Below are positions 2,660-13,630 of a stretch of DNA of 64,000 nucleotides, in pieces. A model generated the notes under the pieces. It did no database searches. It saw nothing but the letters and a program-made list of their open reading frames with translations, and was not told where the DNA came from. The translations under genes and the position numbers were made by a program. Every line of letters begins with the position of its first letter. Position 1 is the stretch's first letter. The stretch comes from Ignavibacteria bacterium (GTDB taxonomy: Bacteria; Bacteroidota; Ignavibacteria; Kapaibacteriales; UBA2268), in NCBI GenBank assembly GCA_012518115.1, contig JAAYTD010000026.1, forward strand, positions 1 through 64,000. The letters run 5' to 3'.

Positions 2660-2710
2660 CTACCCCGTCAGGCTTCGCCTGCCATCCCTTCGTTCCAAAG
2701 GGAAATTTTT
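2660..2710. repeat. Dispersed intergenic two-hairpin repeat, copy 1
   Basis: ctaccccgtCAGGCttcGCCTGccatCCCTTcgttccaAAGGGaaattttt; similar sequence at 5114-5156 and 13580-13630. Confidence 0.8.
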
Positions 2711-2727
2711 AAACTAATATACAGTTC

Positions 2728-2749
2728 AATTTTGGTATAAACCAAAATT
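2728..2749. repeat. Perfect inverted repeat (9-bp stem, 4-nt loop)
   Basis: AATTTTGGT-ataa-ACCAAAATT. Confidence 0.8.
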
Positions 2750-2795
2750 TTAAAGCTTTATTCGTCAATAAATTAGTTCGCTGCTTCATGGAAGT

Positions 2796-3824
2796 TTAGG
2801 AAGATTTAAATTTCATATTGGTTGTTTTAGAAATTATCAGCATGAATATCCCGGCAACAAGCAACCAAAAAACTAATCTTGCACGTCGCATAAGTGTAGC
2901 CACAAACCATACTTCGTTGCTTTTAATTCCAATGGCAGCCAACATTACTTTGTTGCCGTACTCTTCTACGCCTATTTGTCCCGGAATAAACGCTCCCAGA
3001 GTAATGAAAAATATTACTCCCATTTGTACTGCTATCGCGTCTATCATTGCAACATTCAACCCTAATATTTTGAAAATAATGTAAAATTCTACGGCAAGGA
3101 AAATCCAATGCAACGAACATAACAAAAAGGAAATTATGAAACGTACTTTGTTCGCCACGAAGAAGTCTGATGAAATTTTATTTATGTTATATACCGATGA
3201 AATCACTTTATCGGTTAAAAAAGACCAATTTTTCTTTTTTGAGATATATTCCACAGTTTTTCCAAAAGAAAGCTTGGGATTTAGCAGATAAACCATAAAA
3301 AAGTAGATCAAAACAGCTATTAGCACAACCGTAATAATGATATTGAGTAGATTTGAGCTGTCGCCGGCTTTTACAACAAGCAGATAAACCACTGAAATAA
3401 GCGCCAGAAAAACTCCCGATATCAGTAGCAAAATACGAATCATCGCAATGGAACTCAAGCTGTATGAAGTATCAACCCCGCGTTTATGTAGATAGACTGT
3501 TTTTATTCCTTCGCCGGCAATAATTCCCGTAGGATTAAATGTAGTAAGTATTTCGCCCACGTGTTTAATCATAAACAGGTTCAAAAAACCTATCTTTTTA
3601 CTCTCTTCACCCAACATCAATTTCCATGCAACGGTGGATGATGCATAAGCCAAAAGAGAAGCTGCCAGTACGCCCACAAACATTCCCGGCATTTGTTTCA
3701 GATAGTTTCCCAACTGCCGAAAGTCCACGTTTGAGATGAACCTTCCCACCAATATCAACACAAATACCAATAATATAGCGACAATTTGTTTCTTATATTT
3801 TTTTAAAAATGTAATGAATTTCAT
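2796..3824 (-). CDS. Lysylphosphatidylglycerol synthase TM region/UPF0104-like flippase-type membrane protein
   Basis: Multi-TM protein; motifs FNPTGIIAGEGIKTVYLHKRG and FIPGQIGVEEYGNKVMLAAIG typical of the AglD/UPF0104 family. Confidence 0.75.
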   Translation of the reverse strand: MKFITFLKKYKKQIVAILLVFVLILVGRFISNVDFRQLGNYLKQMPGMFVGVLAASLLAYASSTVAWKLMLGEESKKIGFLNLFMIKHVGEILTTFNPTGIIAGEGIKTVYLHKRGVDTSYSLSSIAMIRILLLISGVFLALISVVYLLVVKAGDSSNLLNIIITVVLIAVLIYFFMVYLLNPKLSFGKTVEYISKKKNWSFLTDKVISSVYNINKISSDFFVANKVRFIISFLLCSLHWIFLAVEFYIIFKILGLNVAMIDAIAVQMGVIFFITLGAFIPGQIGVEEYGNKVMLAAIGIKSNEVWFVATLMRRARLVFWLLVAGIFMLIISKTTNMKFKSS

Positions 3825-5035
3825 TTTTGATTTGTTACTTTTTTACGTAATTGGGCAAGTGATACAATATCGTTAAAGTATTCGTCCGTTAAATTTTCCC
3901 AACTGAATAATTCTGCATATTTCCTCGCTTCCTCCTGCATTTGTTGTTTTAAATAAGGATTTTCCAATAACAACTTGATTTTACTCACATAATCTTTGGC
4001 ATTATTTGGTTCACATAAAAAACCTGTTTCACCATCTTTCACCAAAGCCTGCGAACCACCGCCACGTGCTATCACAGGAGTACAACCGCAGGCTGTAGCT
4101 TCAGCAACCACACTTCCATACGACTCCGAGATTGACGGAAACACGAATATATCGGTAGATGCGTATAATTTGCCCAATTCATCGTGCGACAGATAGCCTA
4201 AAAAATGAGCTCTTGGCATTCGTGCTCGTGCGTCGGGTTCAGCTACGCCTTTGCCTGCCACTATAAAATTTACATCTATCCCTTGGGCAATTACTTCATC
4301 GTAAATATCGAAAAGTGTTTCTATGTTTTTCTCCCACACAATTCGCGAAGCATAAAGCAAGCTGGGTTTATCGTTTCCCGTTATACTTCGAATATAATTT
4401 TTATCGGCTCTTTTCTGATTAAAAATATTCAAATCAAGCCCTCTAGCCCACTGTTTAAGCAATTTTTCGTCTATTCCGTAACCGACGAGTTCCTGAATCA
4501 TTACTGTTGTAGGTACATAAACAACACTACAGCCATTATAAAATTTTCGACTTATCTTAATGACCAGATTTTTAAATGGCTTAATTAAGAAAGGTATCCA
4601 TTTTAAATAATAAGGCACATAGGAAATATAGTGTGTGTGATAAATGGAAAGCACCGGAATATTGTTTTCTTTGGCATAATTCAATCCAAAAAAGCCTAGT
4701 GGAGATGGCGTGGAAATATGAATTACATCGGGATTAAACTCCGATAAAGCGTTCTGTAACTTATTTTTTGTCAAAGAAGGCAACGACATTTTATAAGAAG
4801 CGTTGACCAGAATGGTTACCGCGGGAATTTTTACCACTTTATGAGAAAACGAATGTGTTGGTGAAACTCCGCATAAAAAGATGTATTCAAACTTGTTTTC
4901 GGGAATCCGATCGATAATCTGATACATCGTTTTTATCGCTCCATCGTAATCTTTCGTTAAAACATCTGCAAAAAAAGCTACCCTTATTTTGCGTGATTGT
5001 TGTTTATTTGATAGTAGTTCTATGCCTTTTTCCAC
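3821..5035 (-). CDS. Glycosyltransferase family 4-type (GT-B)
   Basis: VAFFADVLTKDYDGAIKTMY...HISTPSPLGFFGLNYAKENNIPVLSIYHTHY...SISESYGSVVAEATACGCTPVIARGGG; overlaps the flippase-like gene start by 4 bp. Confidence 0.9.
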   Translation of the reverse strand: MEKGIELLSNKQQSRKIRVAFFADVLTKDYDGAIKTMYQIIDRIPENKFEYIFLCGVSPTHSFSHKVVKIPAVTILVNASYKMSLPSLTKNKLQNALSEFNPDVIHISTPSPLGFFGLNYAKENNIPVLSIYHTHYISYVPYYLKWIPFLIKPFKNLVIKISRKFYNGCSVVYVPTTVMIQELVGYGIDEKLLKQWARGLDLNIFNQKRADKNYIRSITGNDKPSLLYASRIVWEKNIETLFDIYDEVIAQGIDVNFIVAGKGVAEPDARARMPRAHFLGYLSHDELGKLYASTDIFVFPSISESYGSVVAEATACGCTPVIARGGGSQALVKDGETGFLCEPNNAKDYVSKIKLLLENPYLKQQMQEEARKYAELFSWENLTDEYFNDIVSLAQLRKKVTNQK

Positions 5036-5113
5036 TTAAAGAATCAATTATTAAAACAATTGTTTATCAAAAAAAGAGATGGAAAATAGATTTTATGTAA
5101 ATACAAATTTTAT

Positions 5114-5156
5114 TCAAACTTCGTTTGCCATCCCTTCAAATTGAAGAGAATTTTTT
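5114..5156. repeat. Dispersed intergenic two-hairpin repeat, copy 2 (lacks the 5' CTACCCCG block)
   Basis: tCAAACttcGTTTGccatcccTTCAAaTTGAAgagaatttttt. Confidence 0.7.
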
Positions 5157-5167
5157 AAAAATATTTT

Positions 5168-8100
5168 TTAGAAATCTAATCCTAATGAAACCATATAATA
5201 CGGTTTTGACCAACCTGAAAATTCATTTCGCCATCCCATATCAAACTTAACAGGTAAGCCTAAAATAATAGCACGAAGTCCCCAACCTGCACTCATCAGC
5301 AAGTTAGCAGGTTTTCTAACGCCATTTGCATCGTGCTGAGTAATTTTAAAATCATCTGTCCAAGTACCACCTACATCAAGAAAAGCATTTCCCATAACTC
5401 CTTGAATTATTAATGGAATACCACCTGTCATTAGTGCCATAAAAATAGGAAAACGGTATTCTATATTAGCAAGAAAAAATTTATTTCCCATCAACTCACA
5501 AACCGGATAAGCACGCATAGGCATTAAAAAGTTTTGCATAAAAGCAAAATCTTCAGGCTCTTGTAAACTAAAATTACCCGATTTAAAAGAAGAATTTATC
5601 CAATTATTTACCCCACCCATATAGAAAGTTTGCGATCGTCCTCCAAAGCTTGCTCCACCTGATCCACGTAAAGCAAAGCTCATAAAATTAGGAATTATTT
5701 CAATATATTGTCTTGCATCAAAAGTAAGCGTTATAAAATCTGAAGAATTTTCTGTAAATTTAGGTGATACTAAAGCTCTAAAATTAAAACGTGTTCCTCT
5801 CGTTGGAGCATAAATTCCATTCAATGTATTGTCTAAAACAAACTGGAATTCAGGCACTAGTAAAAATCTACTTATAGATTCATAACTTGGCATTTCCGTG
5901 TTTTCTTTCGCTGCATTAACTAAATTTAATTTGAGCTCTACTCGCTTAAATAAATCAAATGCATATTTAGAACCAAGTACAGCACCTGTATTTCTATAAG
6001 AATATAGATAGTTAGCATTGTAATCTTGCAAATAATTCCAAACATAAGCCGAATAATTATAAAGAGAGAAGCTATAATCAATTATTTGAGTATTGTAAAA
6101 ATATGAAGCATAAAACTGACTATTTTTCAAATCAGTCAAAAAATAAGCTTGTAGAAATATTTGATGATTTCCCATTATATCGCTAAACATAACCGCTCCA
6201 TTTCCTTGCAATCCGTAAAATGTCGAAACTCCCGGATTAATCAATAATGCGTCTAAAGAAAAATTAACTTGGTAATCTTTTTCTATGTATTGTTCATCAA
6301 ACAAGGAATTATTTTCAGGGTTTGATAAGTGCTCATGTTCTATAGGCTGAATTACTTCTGTATTTGGTTTTAGGAATTGTTGCGAAGAAAAATCGACAAT
6401 GAAATCACCATAAGCAATAGGCTCATCTGTATCTTTAGAATCAATTATATCTATATCTTCATGCTCCAACAGAAAATTTATTTTCTCTATATTACCTTTC
6501 ATAAAGTTTGTTAAAGGGAGCTCTGTCTCCACTATAGTTTGTTCAAAAGGATTACGCAACAAAAATATATCATATCCACCTTCTATCTGTGTTGCAAATA
6601 TAAGATTTAGATTGTCTGGTGTCATAGAAAGTTGCGTTATTCCTGTTGCTGAATTTGTAATAGGTCTTTCAGTTTTTGTCTCTATCGTATATTCATATAT
6701 ATTTCCAATACCGTTTTTAGTAGATACATACAGCAACTTTTTATTATCGGAAGAAACGACTAACGAAATTTTAGTTACATCAGGTTCATAGCTAATTCTT
6801 TTTATTTCTCTACTTTCTATATCTACATTATAAATATCACATTGCTCAAAATTTGTATTCCAAATTTTCATTTTATCGTTTGTTACATCTTTCGTTAAGT
6901 TATCGCCTCTATCGGAAATATAATATAAAGTTTTGGAATCAGGTGCCCATGTCGGTGCTTTATCAGAAAAAATATCATTTGTAATGTTATAGACTTTTTT
7001 ATCATTTAAGTTATAATAAAATAAATCGCTTTGATTGTTTTTTATTCCTACAAATGCAATTTTTTCACCATCGGGCGACCATACAACTGATGTTATTGAA
7101 GCAAATCCCGGCTTTATTTTCTCATAATCTTCTTTTTCTACATCAACAATAAAGATAGCATCTTCCCCACCAGATTTAGCAGAAACTACAATTTTTTTCC
7201 CGTCAGGCGACCAAGATATTCCGGGAGTTAATACGTTCAATTGCTCAAAATCATTTTGTCTAGCGCTACTAATTATTTTTTTAGGCTTTTTTTCTTTATC
7301 TTTCTCTGAAGGAGTAGTAGAAGAAACAAATATCGCAAATATTCCACCATCTAAATCAGAAATATAAGCCATTTTTTCACCATTAGGCGAAATTGCAGGC
7401 GAAGAAAAATAGAAGCATTGTTGTTTTTTATGATTAGTCAAAGCAGTAGCGAACTCTTTTGGACTTTTATAAACAGTAATATCAGGCCAATAATTTTTTC
7501 TCACATTAGTTTGCCACACATCTGAAAAATCTTCTAACGATAACCCAAAAGTATTTTCAAACGCTAAATCAAGATTGCGATAATTCTTAAGCTTATTTAA
7601 TAGTTCAGTAATTTTTGCCTTTCCATATTTATTTGCAACATAATCATAGAAAGTCTGACCTGCACGATATGCTAAATATCCACTTATATTATCTAAAGAA
7701 GGTAGATTTTCGCTCATTGTTAAATCGCGCATAAACATATCGGTTTCTATGTTCATCCCACCTAAGCTTTCCCATTCAGCGAGTCCCTCATTCAACCAAA
7801 GTGGCAAGAAAAATACTCCTGTTGTTGTCAGCGCAGTCTGGACTGTACCACCATAAAACATATCATTGATAACAGCATGAACTAACTCGTGATGTAACAC
7901 ATGGCGAAGTTGAGAATAATCACCTTGGAATGGAACAACTACACGATTTTTATATAGCTCCGTAACTCCTCCTATACCTTGACTTAGATATAAATCAATT
8001 ACGTTAGTTTGTTGGAAGTCGTTATGCGAATCGTAAACCACAACCGCTATGCGTTGAGTTAACTTGAAATTCAAAGTGTTTTGTACTGAAATCAATGCTT

Positions 8101-8332
8101 TTTCTAATGCTTGTGCTGAAAATTCGGCAAGATATTTACTACCTTTATTATAATAAACATCAAAATGTTTGCTTTCTATGTATTTCCAATCAAACACTTT
8201 ATATTGAGCTTTGTTTTTACCGAAATATTGAGCTTGTACAATAAAACTTTTAGAAAAGAACAAAAATAATACAATGCAAAAGGTGTATAATATAGTTTTA
8301 TTTTTCATTTTTCTACTATCTATTGTCTGCAT
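5168..8332 (-). CDS. Secreted gluzincin-like peptidase + TolB/PD40 beta-propeller + BamA-like outer-membrane beta-barrel fusion
   Basis: HHELVHAVINDMF (HExxH) followed by LWLNEGLAEWES; repeated ISPNGEKMAY/SWSPDGKKIV/VWSPDGEKIAF/WAPDSKTLYYISDRGDN; C-term barrel-like sequence (...GTRFNFRALVSPKF...) ending in aromatic MVSLGLDF. Confidence 0.8.
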   Translation of the reverse strand: MQTIDSRKMKNKTILYTFCIVLFLFFSKSFIVQAQYFGKNKAQYKVFDWKYIESKHFDVYYNKGSKYLAEFSAQALEKALISVQNTLNFKLTQRIAVVVYDSHNDFQQTNVIDLYLSQGIGGVTELYKNRVVVPFQGDYSQLRHVLHHELVHAVINDMFYGGTVQTALTTTGVFFLPLWLNEGLAEWESLGGMNIETDMFMRDLTMSENLPSLDNISGYLAYRAGQTFYDYVANKYGKAKITELLNKLKNYRNLDLAFENTFGLSLEDFSDVWQTNVRKNYWPDITVYKSPKEFATALTNHKKQQCFYFSSPAISPNGEKMAYISDLDGGIFAIFVSSTTPSEKDKEKKPKKIISSARQNDFEQLNVLTPGISWSPDGKKIVVSAKSGGEDAIFIVDVEKEDYEKIKPGFASITSVVWSPDGEKIAFVGIKNNQSDLFYYNLNDKKVYNITNDIFSDKAPTWAPDSKTLYYISDRGDNLTKDVTNDKMKIWNTNFEQCDIYNVDIESREIKRISYEPDVTKISLVVSSDNKKLLYVSTKNGIGNIYEYTIETKTERPITNSATGITQLSMTPDNLNLIFATQIEGGYDIFLLRNPFEQTIVETELPLTNFMKGNIEKINFLLEHEDIDIIDSKDTDEPIAYGDFIVDFSSQQFLKPNTEVIQPIEHEHLSNPENNSLFDEQYIEKDYQVNFSLDALLINPGVSTFYGLQGNGAVMFSDIMGNHQIFLQAYFLTDLKNSQFYASYFYNTQIIDYSFSLYNYSAYVWNYLQDYNANYLYSYRNTGAVLGSKYAFDLFKRVELKLNLVNAAKENTEMPSYESISRFLLVPEFQFVLDNTLNGIYAPTRGTRFNFRALVSPKFTENSSDFITLTFDARQYIEIIPNFMSFALRGSGGASFGGRSQTFYMGGVNNWINSSFKSGNFSLQEPEDFAFMQNFLMPMRAYPVCELMGNKFFLANIEYRFPIFMALMTGGIPLIIQGVMGNAFLDVGGTWTDDFKITQHDANGVRKPANLLMSAGWGLRAIILGLPVKFDMGWRNEFSGWSKPYYMVSLGLDF

Positions 8333-8550
8333 TTTTTTTAAGATAAATTATTTTTATATGATTTGTAATATACGTAATTATTTTAAAAAATTTACAAAAA
8401 CAATAAATATATATTAGCCAATACATACTTTAACGAAATATGGGATATGATTTTATTGTTCAAACCAAAAAATATTTTTTTATGTATAAAATTTCAATTA
8501 GATTTAATGAACGGAATTTATTATATTAGTATTTTATATAAGGTTATTCT

Positions 8551-9936
8551 ATGAAAAACGATTTGAAAAAGGAATTTAATATTGACAAGTTAGTTTCTAA
8601 ATTGACCAGTATTATAAAAAAAAACAAAGGAATTGTTACTCCTGTAGAACTTGCAACAAAAACAGGCAATTCCTTAGATGAAATCAACTTAGCTTTAGAT
8701 AGACTTATAGAACTATATGAAACTCGCATAAACTTAAATCAAGAAACCGGCGCATTACAATATATATTTCAATATCCACTTTTTAAACGTGGAAGTAAAA
8801 CTTTCAAAGAAAAACTATTCGCTATTGTCGACAAACTTTATAAAGTTTTCCAAGTAGTTTATAAAGCTTCTGTCGGAATTATATTAATTTTTTATACTAT
8901 TCTTTTTGTATTAATACTACTTGTTTTTATATTAGCTGCAAGTCGTAACGACAATGACGATTCAGGTAGCAATTTTAGTTTTGCTCCTGCTCTTATTCGT
9001 GGAATAATTTGGGGAATAATTGATGGTATTTTTTGTATTAATCATCCTCTCAATCCTACTAGTATTGTATATCAAGTTGATCCTGTAACTGGTAGCAGAT
9101 ACAAAACTTACAAGAAAGAAAAAAACAAAGGTAAAGGCTTTGTAAGATCTGCTTTTTCTTTTGTTTTTGGTCCTGACTTACCAAAATTTGACCCCTTAGC
9201 TGATGCACGAGAAGTTTTAGCTTATCTCAAATTATACACTAAAGGAAAATTAACTGCTGCTAATATAATTGAACTTTCAGGTGCTGATTATCCTAAAGCA
9301 GAATCAAAACTTGCAGAATATGTTGGTAAGTTTCAAGGTAATTTGAATGTTACAAATTCAGGTGTACTTTATGGAGATTTTGAAAATATAGTTGAAGATA
9401 GCTCTAATAAGGGCGACCATAGCAACATTGAATTTTATAAAGATGAAGTTGAACCTCCTGTTGAATTTACAGGTAATACTGCAGGGAAGAACTTTGCAGT
9501 AATAGCTATGAATACTTTCAACTTAGCAATGTCGGCTTTTTTCCTTTTTGCTGCTATTCCACCAATTATTTATCAAGATACAGAAATACTACTTTCTGAT
9601 TATGCTTTTTTATCAACATTTCCTTTTATCGTTTCCGTACTTTATTTTGTAATTCCTTTGTTGCGTTTTCCTGCATATAAAGCGCGTAAAGCAAAGCGAG
9701 ATTATAATGTTTGGCATAAAAAAATTATCGGTTATATTTGTTCACAAAGAAAAATTGAATTTTCTTTACAAGATTTTATATATAATTTAAATATTAGCAG
9801 TAATAGCCAAGTAGATAAATTGCAAAATATGTTATCTAAAATTGTTGTTGAACTAGAAGGCACTATAGAAATTTCTGAGAACGGAGAAACAATTTATAAA
9901 TTTGAAAGATTATACAAAGAACTTATTATCAATTAA
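8551..9936 (+). CDS. Membrane protein of unknown function with three winged-helix-like modules
   Basis: Hydrophobic segments SVGIILIFYTILFVLILLVFILAA and YAFLSTFPFIVSVLYFVIPLL; three similar blocks ending ...GALQYIFQ, ...GVLYGDFE, ...GETIYKFE. Confidence 0.6.
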   Translation: MKNDLKKEFNIDKLVSKLTSIIKKNKGIVTPVELATKTGNSLDEINLALDRLIELYETRINLNQETGALQYIFQYPLFKRGSKTFKEKLFAIVDKLYKVFQVVYKASVGIILIFYTILFVLILLVFILAASRNDNDDSGSNFSFAPALIRGIIWGIIDGIFCINHPLNPTSIVYQVDPVTGSRYKTYKKEKNKGKGFVRSAFSFVFGPDLPKFDPLADAREVLAYLKLYTKGKLTAANIIELSGADYPKAESKLAEYVGKFQGNLNVTNSGVLYGDFENIVEDSSNKGDHSNIEFYKDEVEPPVEFTGNTAGKNFAVIAMNTFNLAMSAFFLFAAIPPIIYQDTEILLSDYAFLSTFPFIVSVLYFVIPLLRFPAYKARKAKRDYNVWHKKIIGYICSQRKIEFSLQDFIYNLNISSNSQVDKLQNMLSKIVVELEGTIEISENGETIYKFERLYKELIIN

Positions 9937-9956
9937 TTTAATTATTAACTAAAAAG

Positions 9957-10565
9957 ATGAAAAAAACTACAGAAAAAAACAATACATTTCCTATAAGTTC
10001 AATCAGGCGTGTTAAAGGAAGCAGACGTTTTGTCAGAGAGAAGGTTTTGCAAATATTAGTTTCACACTTTGTTTCAGGAAGTGATATAAACGAGCTTATA
10101 GATAATATCTTTTATAGAGATTATAAAATTGATAGTGATAATGAAGTGACAGAAACGGCACCGAAAGAAAAAACTAATAAGATTTTAACGGAAGAAGAAT
10201 TAGAAGAGTTAGAAGCTGATGCAGGAATAGATTGGCGAGAAGAAGATATAAAACTTGCTCATACAATAATCAACGGTGCATTAGCTGAAAACGATTTTGT
10301 TGTAGAAAAATTAAAAGAAATTTCAAAACATTGGCGATATGAAAGAATTTCTATTATAGATAGAGTGCTTATTTTGATGGCTGTATCGGAAATTTTACAT
10401 TGTCCTGAAATACCTATCAAAGTTAGCATTAACGAAGTTGTTGATATTGCTAAAATTTACTCTACCGACAAAAGTACTCAATTTATTAATGGCATTTTAG
10501 ATACAATACTGACTTTTCTAATGAATGAAAACAAAGTAAACAAAACAGGTAGAGGGTTAAAATAA
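9957..10565 (+). CDS. nusB: Transcription antitermination factor NusB
   Basis: VREKVLQILVSHFVS...AHTIINGALAENDFVVEKL...WRYERISIIDRVLILMAVSEILHCPEIPIKVSINEVVDIAKIYSTDKSTQFINGILD. Confidence 0.95.
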   Translation: MKKTTEKNNTFPISSIRRVKGSRRFVREKVLQILVSHFVSGSDINELIDNIFYRDYKIDSDNEVTETAPKEKTNKILTEEELEELEADAGIDWREEDIKLAHTIINGALAENDFVVEKLKEISKHWRYERISIIDRVLILMAVSEILHCPEIPIKVSINEVVDIAKIYSTDKSTQFINGILDTILTFLMNENKVNKTGRGLK

Positions 10566-10568
10566 TTT

Positions 10569-11660
10569 ATGAAAATACGAAACGATTGGTCTTTAAAAGA
10601 AATTATTTCATTATCTTTTTTAAAAGGTTTAACTTACAAAAGACAGCGTGAAAGTGTAGAGAAATTTAAATCTTTGGAAGACTTTACTAAAAATGTTTAC
10701 GAAAGCAATATTAGTTTTTTCGGTAATATTAGCAAACAACCGATAACAAATTCTGAACACTTAGAAAAAGCAGAAGAACAATTAGAATTTTGTCAAAAAA
10801 ATGACATAAACATCATTACTATATGGGACGAAAATTATCCTGTTCTTCTTAAAGAAATTTCCTATCCCCCAACTTTACTTTATGTTAAAGGTAATTTACA
10901 GCCTGCAAATTCTTTATCAATTTCTGTTGTAGGCACAAGACATTGCACGAGTTATGGAAAACTATGTGCTGAACGTTTTGTTAAAGATTTTGTTGCAAAC
11001 AATATTATCATCACTAGTGGCTTAGCTTATGGTATTGATTCTGTAGCTCATAGAGCGTGTATTAAAGCAGAAGGAATAACTTATGCAGTTATAGCTAGTG
11101 GACTTGATAAAATGCAATCTAACGCTAAAAAGTTAGCAGATGAGATTGTCAATATCGGCGGTGCTATTATTTCCGAATATCCTTGCGGAACAACAGCACA
11201 TCCCGGTTATTTTCCTCAAAGAAATCGCATAATTAGTGGAATTTCAAATGCACTTTTAGTTGTAGAAACAGCTTTAAAAGGTGGTTCGCTTATAAGCGCG
11301 CGTTTTGCACAAGAACAAAATCGTGAAGTTTATGCTATACCCGGTGCTATAACTGCTGAAAAAAGTAAAGGTTGCAATAATTTAATATATAAAAATGGTG
11401 CTACTATTGCAATTTCTGCCGAAGAAATAATGCGAGATTTAGGATTAATTGTAGAAGAAAAGTATGAAAAAGAAATTATCTTTGATTCCGATGAAGAAAA
11501 AATGATTTATGATTTACTAGCTAGTGAGCCTATGAATGCTGATACGCTACAAGAAAAAACTCAAATTAAAATTTCTGAACTACTTGTGTTACTGCTTGAA
11601 ATGGAATTTAAAGGAAAAATTCAACAAATGCCCGGTAAACTTTATATCTCTATAAAATAA
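10569..11660 (+). CDS. dprA: DNA-processing protein DprA/Smf
   Basis: ISVVGTRHCTSYGKLCAERFV...ITSGLAYGIDSVAHRACIKAEGITYAVIASGLD...FPQRNRIISGISNALLVVETALKGGSLISARFAQEQNREVYAIPGA. Confidence 0.97.
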   Translation: MKIRNDWSLKEIISLSFLKGLTYKRQRESVEKFKSLEDFTKNVYESNISFFGNISKQPITNSEHLEKAEEQLEFCQKNDINIITIWDENYPVLLKEISYPPTLLYVKGNLQPANSLSISVVGTRHCTSYGKLCAERFVKDFVANNIIITSGLAYGIDSVAHRACIKAEGITYAVIASGLDKMQSNAKKLADEIVNIGGAIISEYPCGTTAHPGYFPQRNRIISGISNALLVVETALKGGSLISARFAQEQNREVYAIPGAITAEKSKGCNNLIYKNGATIAISAEEIMRDLGLIVEEKYEKEIIFDSDEEKMIYDLLASEPMNADTLQEKTQIKISELLVLLLEMEFKGKIQQMPGKLYISIK

Positions 11661-11675
11661 AAAAACTATTTTCTA

Positions 11676-13301
11676 ATGAAACATATTATTTTTTTTATCT
11701 TTATAATTACACCTATATTTTCGTTCGCCAACGATATTACAAATATCAATTCTATAACTATAGACCGAAAGAAAGTTTTTGAAAAAGAAGATAAAGACTG
11801 GTTCTTTGGAGCTCCTTTGTTTAATTCCGTCCATTTTTTAACAAAAGAATATATTATTGAAGACGAAATACTTTTTGCCATCAACGACACGATTTCCGAA
11901 GATTCATTTTTAGAAACAGAACGAAATTTAAGAGCAACAGGCTTATTTACTGAAGTAAAAATAGAATTAGAAGAAAATTCCGAAAATAATTATGATGTGT
12001 TTGTTATAACTAAAGATCGCTGGTCTTTTTATCCTTCAATTCTTTTCGGTATAATAGGTGAAGATATGAACTACGGCGGACGCTTACAAGAATTTAATTT
12101 ATTCGGAACAGGAACATATATCAATATGAGTGGAATTTTTCGGGAAGAACTTGATATCGGATTAGAAGGATTGTTTGAATTACGAAATCAAAGGATTTTT
12201 AGAAGTGAACTAGCTTTAGATGTCTCAATACTAGCTAATCAGTATATAACACGGCAAGATGTAAAAATACATAAAGATTATCGTACTCTTGCAACTACTA
12301 ATTCATACGGAATTTCAGCAAATAATAATTTCGGAAAAGAATTCTTTTTGAATGATATTTTCTTGAAATATTTATTCCCCGATTTAAAATTTTTACCAAT
12401 AAATGAAAAAACAATTAAAACATGGTATTCAAGAGCGTGGAAAATGAATGATTTCGTATATCTAACGGGACTTCTTGAGTACAACAAAACTGACAGAGGA
12501 TTAAATTTCTTTCAAAGAGCTTATGACAATCAAGGAAAAATTTTAGTAGGTTTTTCTTCATCAGCACAAAATTTCTATGCTGTTGAAAGAATTAACTCAT
12601 ATAATATAGAAGACTTAGAAGAAGGTGGTTGGGGAACTGCAATTCTTGGAAAAACTTTTCCTATAGCTAGCTATGGTGGAGAACGTGGTTTTTTCTATGT
12701 TGCAGGTCAAGCAGAAAAATCTGTTTATACAAAGGATTTTTATCTATTCGGACAATTGACAGGCGCTAGTTCTTTTTCGTCTGATTTTGCAAAATATACA
12801 TATCAATCTTTTCTTGGCTTAGGTTTTGTAAGGTTAAACGAAAAATTATTACTTGCTGCAAAATTCGATCAACAAGCTGTTTGGAACTGGCCCCGTTTTA
12901 GACAACTTGTTATTGATGAAACACGCGGATTACGTGGCTATAGTGCGGGAGAGCTCGCAGGCGACAACAGATTAACTACGAACATAGAATTACGTTATTT
13001 CCCGGATTGGCAAGTTTTCATATTCAAATTATCCGGCGCATTATTTTACGACATTGCTTCGGTATGGAATCAAACTATAGAAATTTTTGATTCGAAATTC
13101 TACTCATCTATAGGTGCGGGCTTGCGTTTACATTTCACAAAGTCAGATAATCCTTTACATACTTTCCGCATAGATTTCCCTTATAATTTCCATACAAAAA
13201 AGGTGGGAATTTCATTAGGTGTCAGTCAATACTTTGAAGCTTTTGGCAAACATCGTTTTAGATTGCCAGAAATTTATGGAACAGAGTTTGATTTTGAATA
13301 A
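11676..13301 (+). CDS. BamA/TamA-like outer-membrane protein with POTRA-like N-terminus
   Basis: N-term signal; GAPLFNSVHFLTKEYIIEDEILFAINDTISEDSFLETERNLRATGLFTEVKIEL; LRGYSAGELAGDNRLTTNIELRYFP; C-term barrel strands. Confidence 0.75.
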   Translation: MKHIIFFIFIITPIFSFANDITNINSITIDRKKVFEKEDKDWFFGAPLFNSVHFLTKEYIIEDEILFAINDTISEDSFLETERNLRATGLFTEVKIELEENSENNYDVFVITKDRWSFYPSILFGIIGEDMNYGGRLQEFNLFGTGTYINMSGIFREELDIGLEGLFELRNQRIFRSELALDVSILANQYITRQDVKIHKDYRTLATTNSYGISANNNFGKEFFLNDIFLKYLFPDLKFLPINEKTIKTWYSRAWKMNDFVYLTGLLEYNKTDRGLNFFQRAYDNQGKILVGFSSSAQNFYAVERINSYNIEDLEEGGWGTAILGKTFPIASYGGERGFFYVAGQAEKSVYTKDFYLFGQLTGASSFSSDFAKYTYQSFLGLGFVRLNEKLLLAAKFDQQAVWNWPRFRQLVIDETRGLRGYSAGELAGDNRLTTNIELRYFPDWQVFIFKLSGALFYDIASVWNQTIEIFDSKFYSSIGAGLRLHFTKSDNPLHTFRIDFPYNFHTKKVGISLGVSQYFEAFGKHRFRLPEIYGTEFDFE

Positions 13302-13380
13302 TATTTTGTCCAAAATATAGTAGTCAAATAATCATCCTGAGGAGAATTTGCTCCCAGCGAAGTACAAGTACTTGCTTTTT

Positions 13381-13410
13381 TATCCCGTTAGGGATAGAAT
13401 GTTGGTAAAA
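13381..13410 (+). repeat. Short palindromic element, unit 1
   Basis: TATCCC-gtta-GGGATA then gAATGTTGGTAAAA. Confidence 0.75.
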
Positions 13411-13429
13411 AAGTTTATGTTTCACTCTG

Positions 13430-13458
13430 TTTCGTCCCGTATGGGACGAAATTAGTAG
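13430..13458 (+). repeat. Short palindromic element, unit 2
   Basis: TTTCGTCCC-gtat-GGGACGAAA (9-bp perfect stem, 13430-13451) then TTAGTAG. Confidence 0.75.
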
Positions 13459-13464
13459 ATTACA

Positions 13465-13498
13465 TTTTTTTTTACCGATATTTTGTGCCTACGGCACA
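13465..13498 (-). repeat. Short palindromic element, unit 3 (inverted relative to unit 1)
   Basis: On the minus strand: TGTGCC-gta-GGCACA then AAATATCGGTAAAAAAAAA. Confidence 0.75.
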
Positions 13499-13579
13499 TC
13501 TTTATGTTTACCTTTTTTCTGGCTTGAACAAGATTGCCAAAATTTCTCAAAATCCCACTAATCACAGTTCAGACAATAA

Positions 13580-13630
13580 CTACCCCGTCAAACTTCGCTT
13601 GCCACCCCTTCCAATCTAAAGGAAAATTTT
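13580..13630. repeat. Dispersed intergenic two-hairpin repeat, copy 3
   Basis: ctaccccgtcaaacttcgcttgccacCCCTTccaatctaAAGGaaaatttt; aligns with 2660-2710. Confidence 0.8.

Follow-up and report, generated by a model that had tools for sequence, protein, structure and literature searches.

Among the described REP-like families, GTAG REPs and REPINs are paired with RAYT (TnpA-REP), an HUH tyrosine transposase. CGTC-tagged REPs are reported from Chlorobi and Bacteroidetes and "apparently lack a dedicated transposase" (Di Nocera 2013, PMC3733652), and some Rickettsia palindromic elements (RPEs) have been classed as CGTC REPs (PMC3733652). How REP-like palindromes spread without RAYT is a stated open question (PMC3733652), for which the present analysis offers DUF559 as a concrete and widespread candidate enzyme. 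A Caulobacter DUF559 protein (Vsr, or VsrA) is read as a very-short-patch mismatch-repair enzyme (PMC12907096), and in Legionella, segments that contain a DUF559 gene together with a transposase are reported to be recombination hotspots (PMC12308824). Our literature search, with subscription journals outside it, found no link of DUF559 to repeats of such kind. We propose, as the probable reading of the data below, that a dispersed palindromic element provides the REP-like terminal repeats, and the solo ends, of a homing-endonuclease-like mobile DUF559 cassette, forming a REP system without RAYT.

The window, meaning the whole stretch of 64,000 nt that was analysed, contains three copies of the element:

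2660..2709, plus strand: copy 1, with head CTACCCCGT, hairpin 1 CAGGC-TTC-GCCTG (2669-2681), tail CCA, hairpin 2 TCCCTT/AAGGGA (2685-2703) and an AATTTT end, in a convergent gap
5115..5156, plus strand: copy 2, head lost, with hairpin 1 CAAAC-TTC-GTTTG (5115-5127), a degenerate hairpin 2 around CTTC/GAAG and an AATTTT end, between two minus-strand genes
13580..13629, plus strand: copy 3, with head CTACCCCGT, hairpin 1 CAAAC-TTC-GCTTG with one mismatch, a decayed hairpin 2 and an AATTTT end, in a convergent gap

The element core CTTCGYYTGCCAYCCCTTC has three exact matches in the window and none in 100 dinucleotide shuffles, and the head CTACCCCGTC is kept in copies 1 and 3. The first-pass annotation had described three intergenic copies of one shared element with compensatory changes in two hairpins. 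The shared element, its intergenic location in the window and the paired changes of hairpin 1 between copies 1 and 2 were all recovered, as was the single mismatch in hairpin 1 of copy 3, which is A.C on the plus strand and G.T on the other strand. The compensation claimed for hairpin 2 among the three copies proved to be mostly degeneration and a change of register. In single-strand folding, copy 1 alone of the three beats its shuffles. No Rfam family matches the element; the window also carries an Rfam DUF805b RNA (RF02914) at 1257-1297, just 5' of a WG-repeat protein ORF (1320-2537).

The genome of origin (2.48 Mb, 92 contigs, 97% complete) was surveyed by pattern search together with a sample of about 0.5 Mb, and 164 core matches with at most three mismatches were obtained, compared with 2 for the reversed pattern. 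The element spans about 49 nt in the layout CTACCCCGTC-(hairpin 1)-CCA-CCCCTTC-n-GAAGGGGAATTTT and is dispersed and almost strictly intergenic. Its own-genome consensus is CCCCGTC..GCCACC, in which a CGTC tag and a CCA tail are present; across phyla the tag reads CCGT in 86 of 150 matches, CCGC in 27 and CCGG in 23, with the consensus CCACCCCG(T/C/G)C. Hairpin 1 has a 5-bp stem and a loop of 3-4 nt (TTC or TAGC), and its arms occur as CAAAC/GTTTG, CAGGC/GCCTG, CAAGC/GCTTG, CAGAC/GTCTG and CCGGC/GCCGT. Pairing was assessed in 47 distinct own-genome copies that were located through their heads and tails, leaving the arms of hairpin 1 unconstrained: 97.9% of the hairpin-1 cells are paired, two pairs show 14 double changes each, and the covariation score is reached by 0 of 500 shuffles. 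Hairpin 1 covaries strongly. In the cross-phylum alignment of 150 matches, which was fitted to the model and leans towards it, all four Watson-Crick pairs appear at several positions of hairpin 1, with 137 double-change cells. Hairpin 2 is near-invariant in the own genome, with weak compensation, and is compensated to some extent across phyla. The first-pass annotation would have been undercut by a family of only these three copies, or by stems whose changes go uncompensated; the copies are numerous, and the stem changes are mostly compensated. A sister unit, B, with the form CCACACCTCCCC..TACTCCTCTCAAGAGGAGAATTT and the same architecture, pairs head-to-head or tail-to-tail with the element, and 26 copies of it lie in 504 kb of the own genome (for example L080:2128-2230).

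Among 55 copies sampled over about 0.5 Mb, none is inside an ORF; 19 lie in convergent, 25 in codirectional and 2 in divergent gaps, and 9 are at edges. Of the copies in codirectional gaps, 18 run antisense and 7 sense (p=0.04). In a separate count, the nearest gene end is a 3' end for 22 of 24 copies. The family has the features of REPs, being high-copy, intergenic and palindromic and forming inverted dimers as head-to-head and tail-to-tail pairs. The REP-like character put forward at first pass stands as regards a selected or self-correcting hairpin, and fails as regards the partner, which is a DUF559 nuclease and not RAYT: a search of the own genome with PF01797 (Y1_Tnp) finds nothing, although the same family has matches in 175 of 248 genomes of the phylum. 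The partner gene is the following:

G000:C53:2269-2784 (the same as L031:1471-1986), minus strand: DUF559 ORF, outside the window, the sole DUF559 gene of the genome

This gene lies between inverted copies of the element, in the order (rc-element)-DUF559 gene-(element). The heads, CCACCCCG and CTACCCCGTC, point towards the gene, and the cassette terminates at the outer ends, AATTCCCC and GGGGAATT. Of the flanking copies, one has an exact twin among the dispersed copies of the genome, and the other differs from a dispersed copy by a single mismatch. The encoded protein matches DUF559 at 2.8e-29, and D105, E116, D118, H122 and D129 are invariant in 31 homologues. An alignment-based structure model (pLDDT 80) was used, the single-sequence fold being of low confidence, and Foldseek returned 3hrl (1.6e-6), the catalytic domain of I-Bth0305I (3r3p; 9e-4, TM 0.70 by target) and Vsr (1cw0). 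On this model, the protein is a single-domain nuclease with the fold of Vsr and of the homing endonuclease I-Bth0305I; it looks active and is presumably a working enzyme.

A covariance model built from the own-genome copies (R1) was run on the 248 genomes of the phylum, and 31 were positive. DUF559 occurs in 26 of these 31 and in 112 of the 217 other genomes (p=4e-4), and five element-positive genomes are without it. Of 66 examined among the R1 matches listed, 11 have a listed DUF559 gene within 600 bp, where 0.03 would be expected; among the matches listed there are also five genomes in which every match is at a DUF559 locus. A further 80 loci were selected solely for the similarity of their DUF559 protein, which is 56-78% identical to the query; they come from Bacteroidota, Ignavibacteria, Desulfobacterota, Cyanobacteria, Spirochaetes, Nitrosomonas, Campylobacterota, Cloacimonadota, Bacillota, Chloroflexi, Armatimonadota, Acidobacteria and others. 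Many of them are metagenome-assembled, and isolates or complete genomes are included too (Haliotispira prima, Nitrosomonas mobilis, Pseudanabaena cinerea, Muricauda, Pedobacter and Flavobacterium). An R1 element stands within 400 bp of the DUF559 gene in 74 of the 80 loci and on both sides in 47, with a density near the gene 28-fold that of the surrounding DNA. Upstream, the nearest copy is oriented towards the gene in 68 of 72 cases, and downstream in 38 of 49. Eight RAYT loci carry no element, and among the matches listed none is near a listed RAYT. The association of the element with one clade of DUF559 nucleases across phyla is firmly established by these counts.

Comparison of occupied and unoccupied sites was possible in two genes. 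The hsdR loci with the in-frame DUF559 insertion pattern are:

L174:1999-5658; L250:1289-5095; L128; L261; L273

The hsdR gene of Muricauda sp. M10 has a frame of 1219 aa in which element, DUF559 gene and element stand in frame before the Walker A motif, and the uninterrupted HsdR of another genome has 1075 aa and is 92% identical over the 297 residues compared. The DNA alignment of the filled locus L174 with the empty locus L253 is interrupted at the outer ends of the elements, AATTCCCC and GGGGAATT, and about 27 nt of the empty site are replaced, with no duplication. The same place in hsdR holds a cassette of the same clade in two further genomes and, in a third, a member of a different DUF559 subfamily accompanied by a different repeat; a fourth genome carries DUF559 at another position in hsdR, and in one genome an apparent solo repeat lies in frame in hsdR. 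As an observation in its own right, hsdR shows recurrent in-frame DUF559 cassettes of two subfamilies, in the same loop before Walker A and in at least one case elsewhere, an intein-like pattern without an intein.

In Flavobacterium, a second copy of the 3' end of uvrA lies beyond the cassette in four of four cassette loci. The duplicate is about 58-105 nt long and divergent, and its local-alignment scores are 71, 62, 44 and a weak 17, compared with shuffled maxima of 14-16, the maximum for the weak case being 14. In 28 cassette-free Flavobacterium genomes, no second uvrA end rises notably above its own shuffles, and candidate "scar" copies of the uvrA end in such genomes were rejected, their scores being no better than those of shuffles. 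When the filled site L216 is set against L227, the latter agrees with the filled site at its far junction and therefore represents the empty state. A target duplication of about 58-105 nt is seen at uvrA (one of the four being weak) and none at hsdR, where about 27 nt are replaced instead; therefore, no single clean rule of target duplication is established. On these alignments, filled and empty sites with boundaries at the elements show insertion at defined sites.

Other DUF559 subfamilies have repeats of their own, and R1 is essentially absent from them. The narrow pattern CCGTC..CCACC missed most DUF559 flanks because the repeats differ by subfamily, and comparison of flank with flank was adopted instead. 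Among 58 solo DUF559 loci of other subfamilies, 43 share a repeat between their flanks, compared with 17 of 1266 slid windows at the same loci; the shared repeat is inverted in 30 of the 58 and in 0 of the 1266, and in 15 of the 58 a shared repeat was undetected. The flank repeat of one genome (G160) is dispersed, with 22 matches, mostly paired, and none in the reversed control, and in another (G046) a matching palindrome is dispersed, again with none in the reversed control. Helicase-length DUF559 ORFs were used only to show the absence of R1, and two of them proved to be hsdR genes into which DUF559 genes of other subfamilies had inserted. Several individual loci may be added. The gonococcal NGO0050 homologue, for which the solved structure is 3hrl, has on both sides a similar repeat (L293:1070-1140 and 1665-1760) that contains a C-rich palindrome, CCCTGTGGGA. 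The E. coli DUF559 gene ycjD lies between sapF and fabI (L283:2989-3354; L288:1790-2143) and is followed by C-rich palindromic repeats that are also found elsewhere in E. coli. In several E. coli strains its place next to fabI is taken by an RND-efflux/TetR insertion; ycjD was set aside as an empty-site test, as the strains without a full match carry this different insertion beside fabI and not clean empty sites. On a Sphingomonas plasmid, a DUF559 gene (L284:1465-1875) lies within the suf operon, placed so tightly between sufB and sufC that flank repeats would not fit, and it is possibly domesticated.

We infer that catalysis and transposition are performed by the DUF559 cassette. The nuclease would recognise the element, the likely feature being hairpin 1 together with the CG-rich tag, in extruded or single-stranded form, and would nick or cut at the element or at the target. 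Repair would then copy into new sites either the whole cassette or just one or two of its ends. Cassettes would cross between genomes by horizontal transfer and go on to populate a genome with solo copies. The pairing of hairpin 1 would in that case reflect recognition of the hairpin or hairpin-templated correction, and not a need of host mRNA. Two widely spaced nicks on opposite strands could account for the long duplication at uvrA; no duplication is seen at hsdR.

The main rival to this model holds that the repeats spread otherwise, by a lost RAYT or another transposase, and that DUF559 genes are homing passengers which insert into existing repeats. The homing-endonuclease fold fits insertion into a recognised site, and some DUF559 genes do have whole repeat dimers (G160) or long direct repeats on either side, as if inserted into a dimer. 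We nevertheless regard it as unlikely: in several genomes copies of the element occur only at the DUF559 gene, the cassette ends are the element ends at sites that are element-free in relatives (L253 for hsdR, L227 for uvrA), and the own genome is without RAYT, with no listed R1 match near a listed RAYT. A classical GTAG REP element mobilised by RAYT is largely refuted and now barely credible, given the lack of a Y1_Tnp gene in the genome, of a GTAG tag and of any element at the eight RAYT loci, even if the intergenic, 3'-end-biased and palindromic copies with their head-to-head and tail-to-tail pairs are like known REPs.

It is very unlikely that the element is a host-selected RNA or DNA structure at gene ends, such as a terminator, an mRNA 3' stabiliser or a site for gyrase or another protein. 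Strong covariation of hairpin 1 and the proximity of 3' ends speak for such a role, but purifying selection against insertion elsewhere predicts the 3'-end bias equally, and the excess of antisense copies in codirectional gaps, the patchy distribution, the in-frame insertions in hsdR and the recurrence of the element beside a single nuclease family in different phyla all count against it. An mRNA 3'-end or terminator role, one of those suggested at first pass, is accordingly disfavoured as the cause of spread by the antisense excess and by the bracketing of one protein family across phyla; the element may have a secondary host role beside its spread. Hairpin-templated mutation is known in bacteria, and such quasi-palindrome correction, in place of selection, could keep the arms paired and leave covariation silent on function. 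In short hairpins it would change both partners of a pair with no need for selection. This reading is improbable, however, for the longer-stemmed hairpin 2 is far less compensated in the same copies and the DUF559 linkage is left unexplained.

If the mobile-cassette model is correct, it gives a role to the uncharacterised DUF559 and advises caution before a role in mismatch repair is assigned to every solo DUF559 protein. Cognate pairs of repeat and nuclease, defined ends, empty and filled sites and the E. coli gene ycjD make the question directly testable. The chances are about even that the model extends to a distinct, pan-bacterial class of mobile elements, composed of a Vsr-like DUF559 homing nuclease and palindromic repeats that also multiply alone, which would explain many orphan REP-like families, including the repeats at E. 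coli ycjD and at NGO0050, without a tyrosine transposase.

The system resembles several known ones in part. With RPEs it shares a palindromic repeat lying in frame in protein genes (here hsdR), and differs in sequence and in its link to a nuclease gene. The Caulobacter VsrA protein likewise has a DUF559 domain and a Vsr-like fold, but it is read as a mismatch-repair enzyme, and its flanking repeats are undiscussed in the cited part of that source (PMC12907096). The CGTC REPs also have a CGTC tag before the stem, a CCA tail after it and head-to-head pairs (PMC3733652); their stem, however, is of 8-9 bp starting with AT and their loop of 4-5 nt, compared with 5 bp, no AT start and 3-4 nt here, where a second hairpin, CCCCTTC/GAAGGGG, follows. 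The strict patterns of CGTC-1 to -4 gave no match in the sampled own genome and two at the scanned DUF559 loci, both in L190 and far from the gene. We considered placing the element in Di Nocera's CGTC families 1-4, and it is kept outside them since tag and tail fit and the stem definition fails. EDxHD (Vsr-like) homing endonucleases such as I-Bth0305I are the nearest solved folds besides NGO0050 and are similar in being free-standing mobile nucleases and in recurrent in-frame insertion into a conserved gene (hsdR); unlike them, the DUF559 cassette involves no intron or intein and is bracketed by inverted palindromic repeats that also occur solo in high copy. The GTAG REPs and REPINs with RAYT are likewise short, dispersed, intergenic palindromes with a 3'-end bias and inverted dimers, and there too a gene sits between inverted copies of the repeat of its own genome, a REPtron-like layout. 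The present system departs from them in lacking RAYT, in its tag CG(T/C/G)C and in having as partner a PD-(D/E)XK/Vsr-like nuclease in place of an HUH tyrosine transposase.
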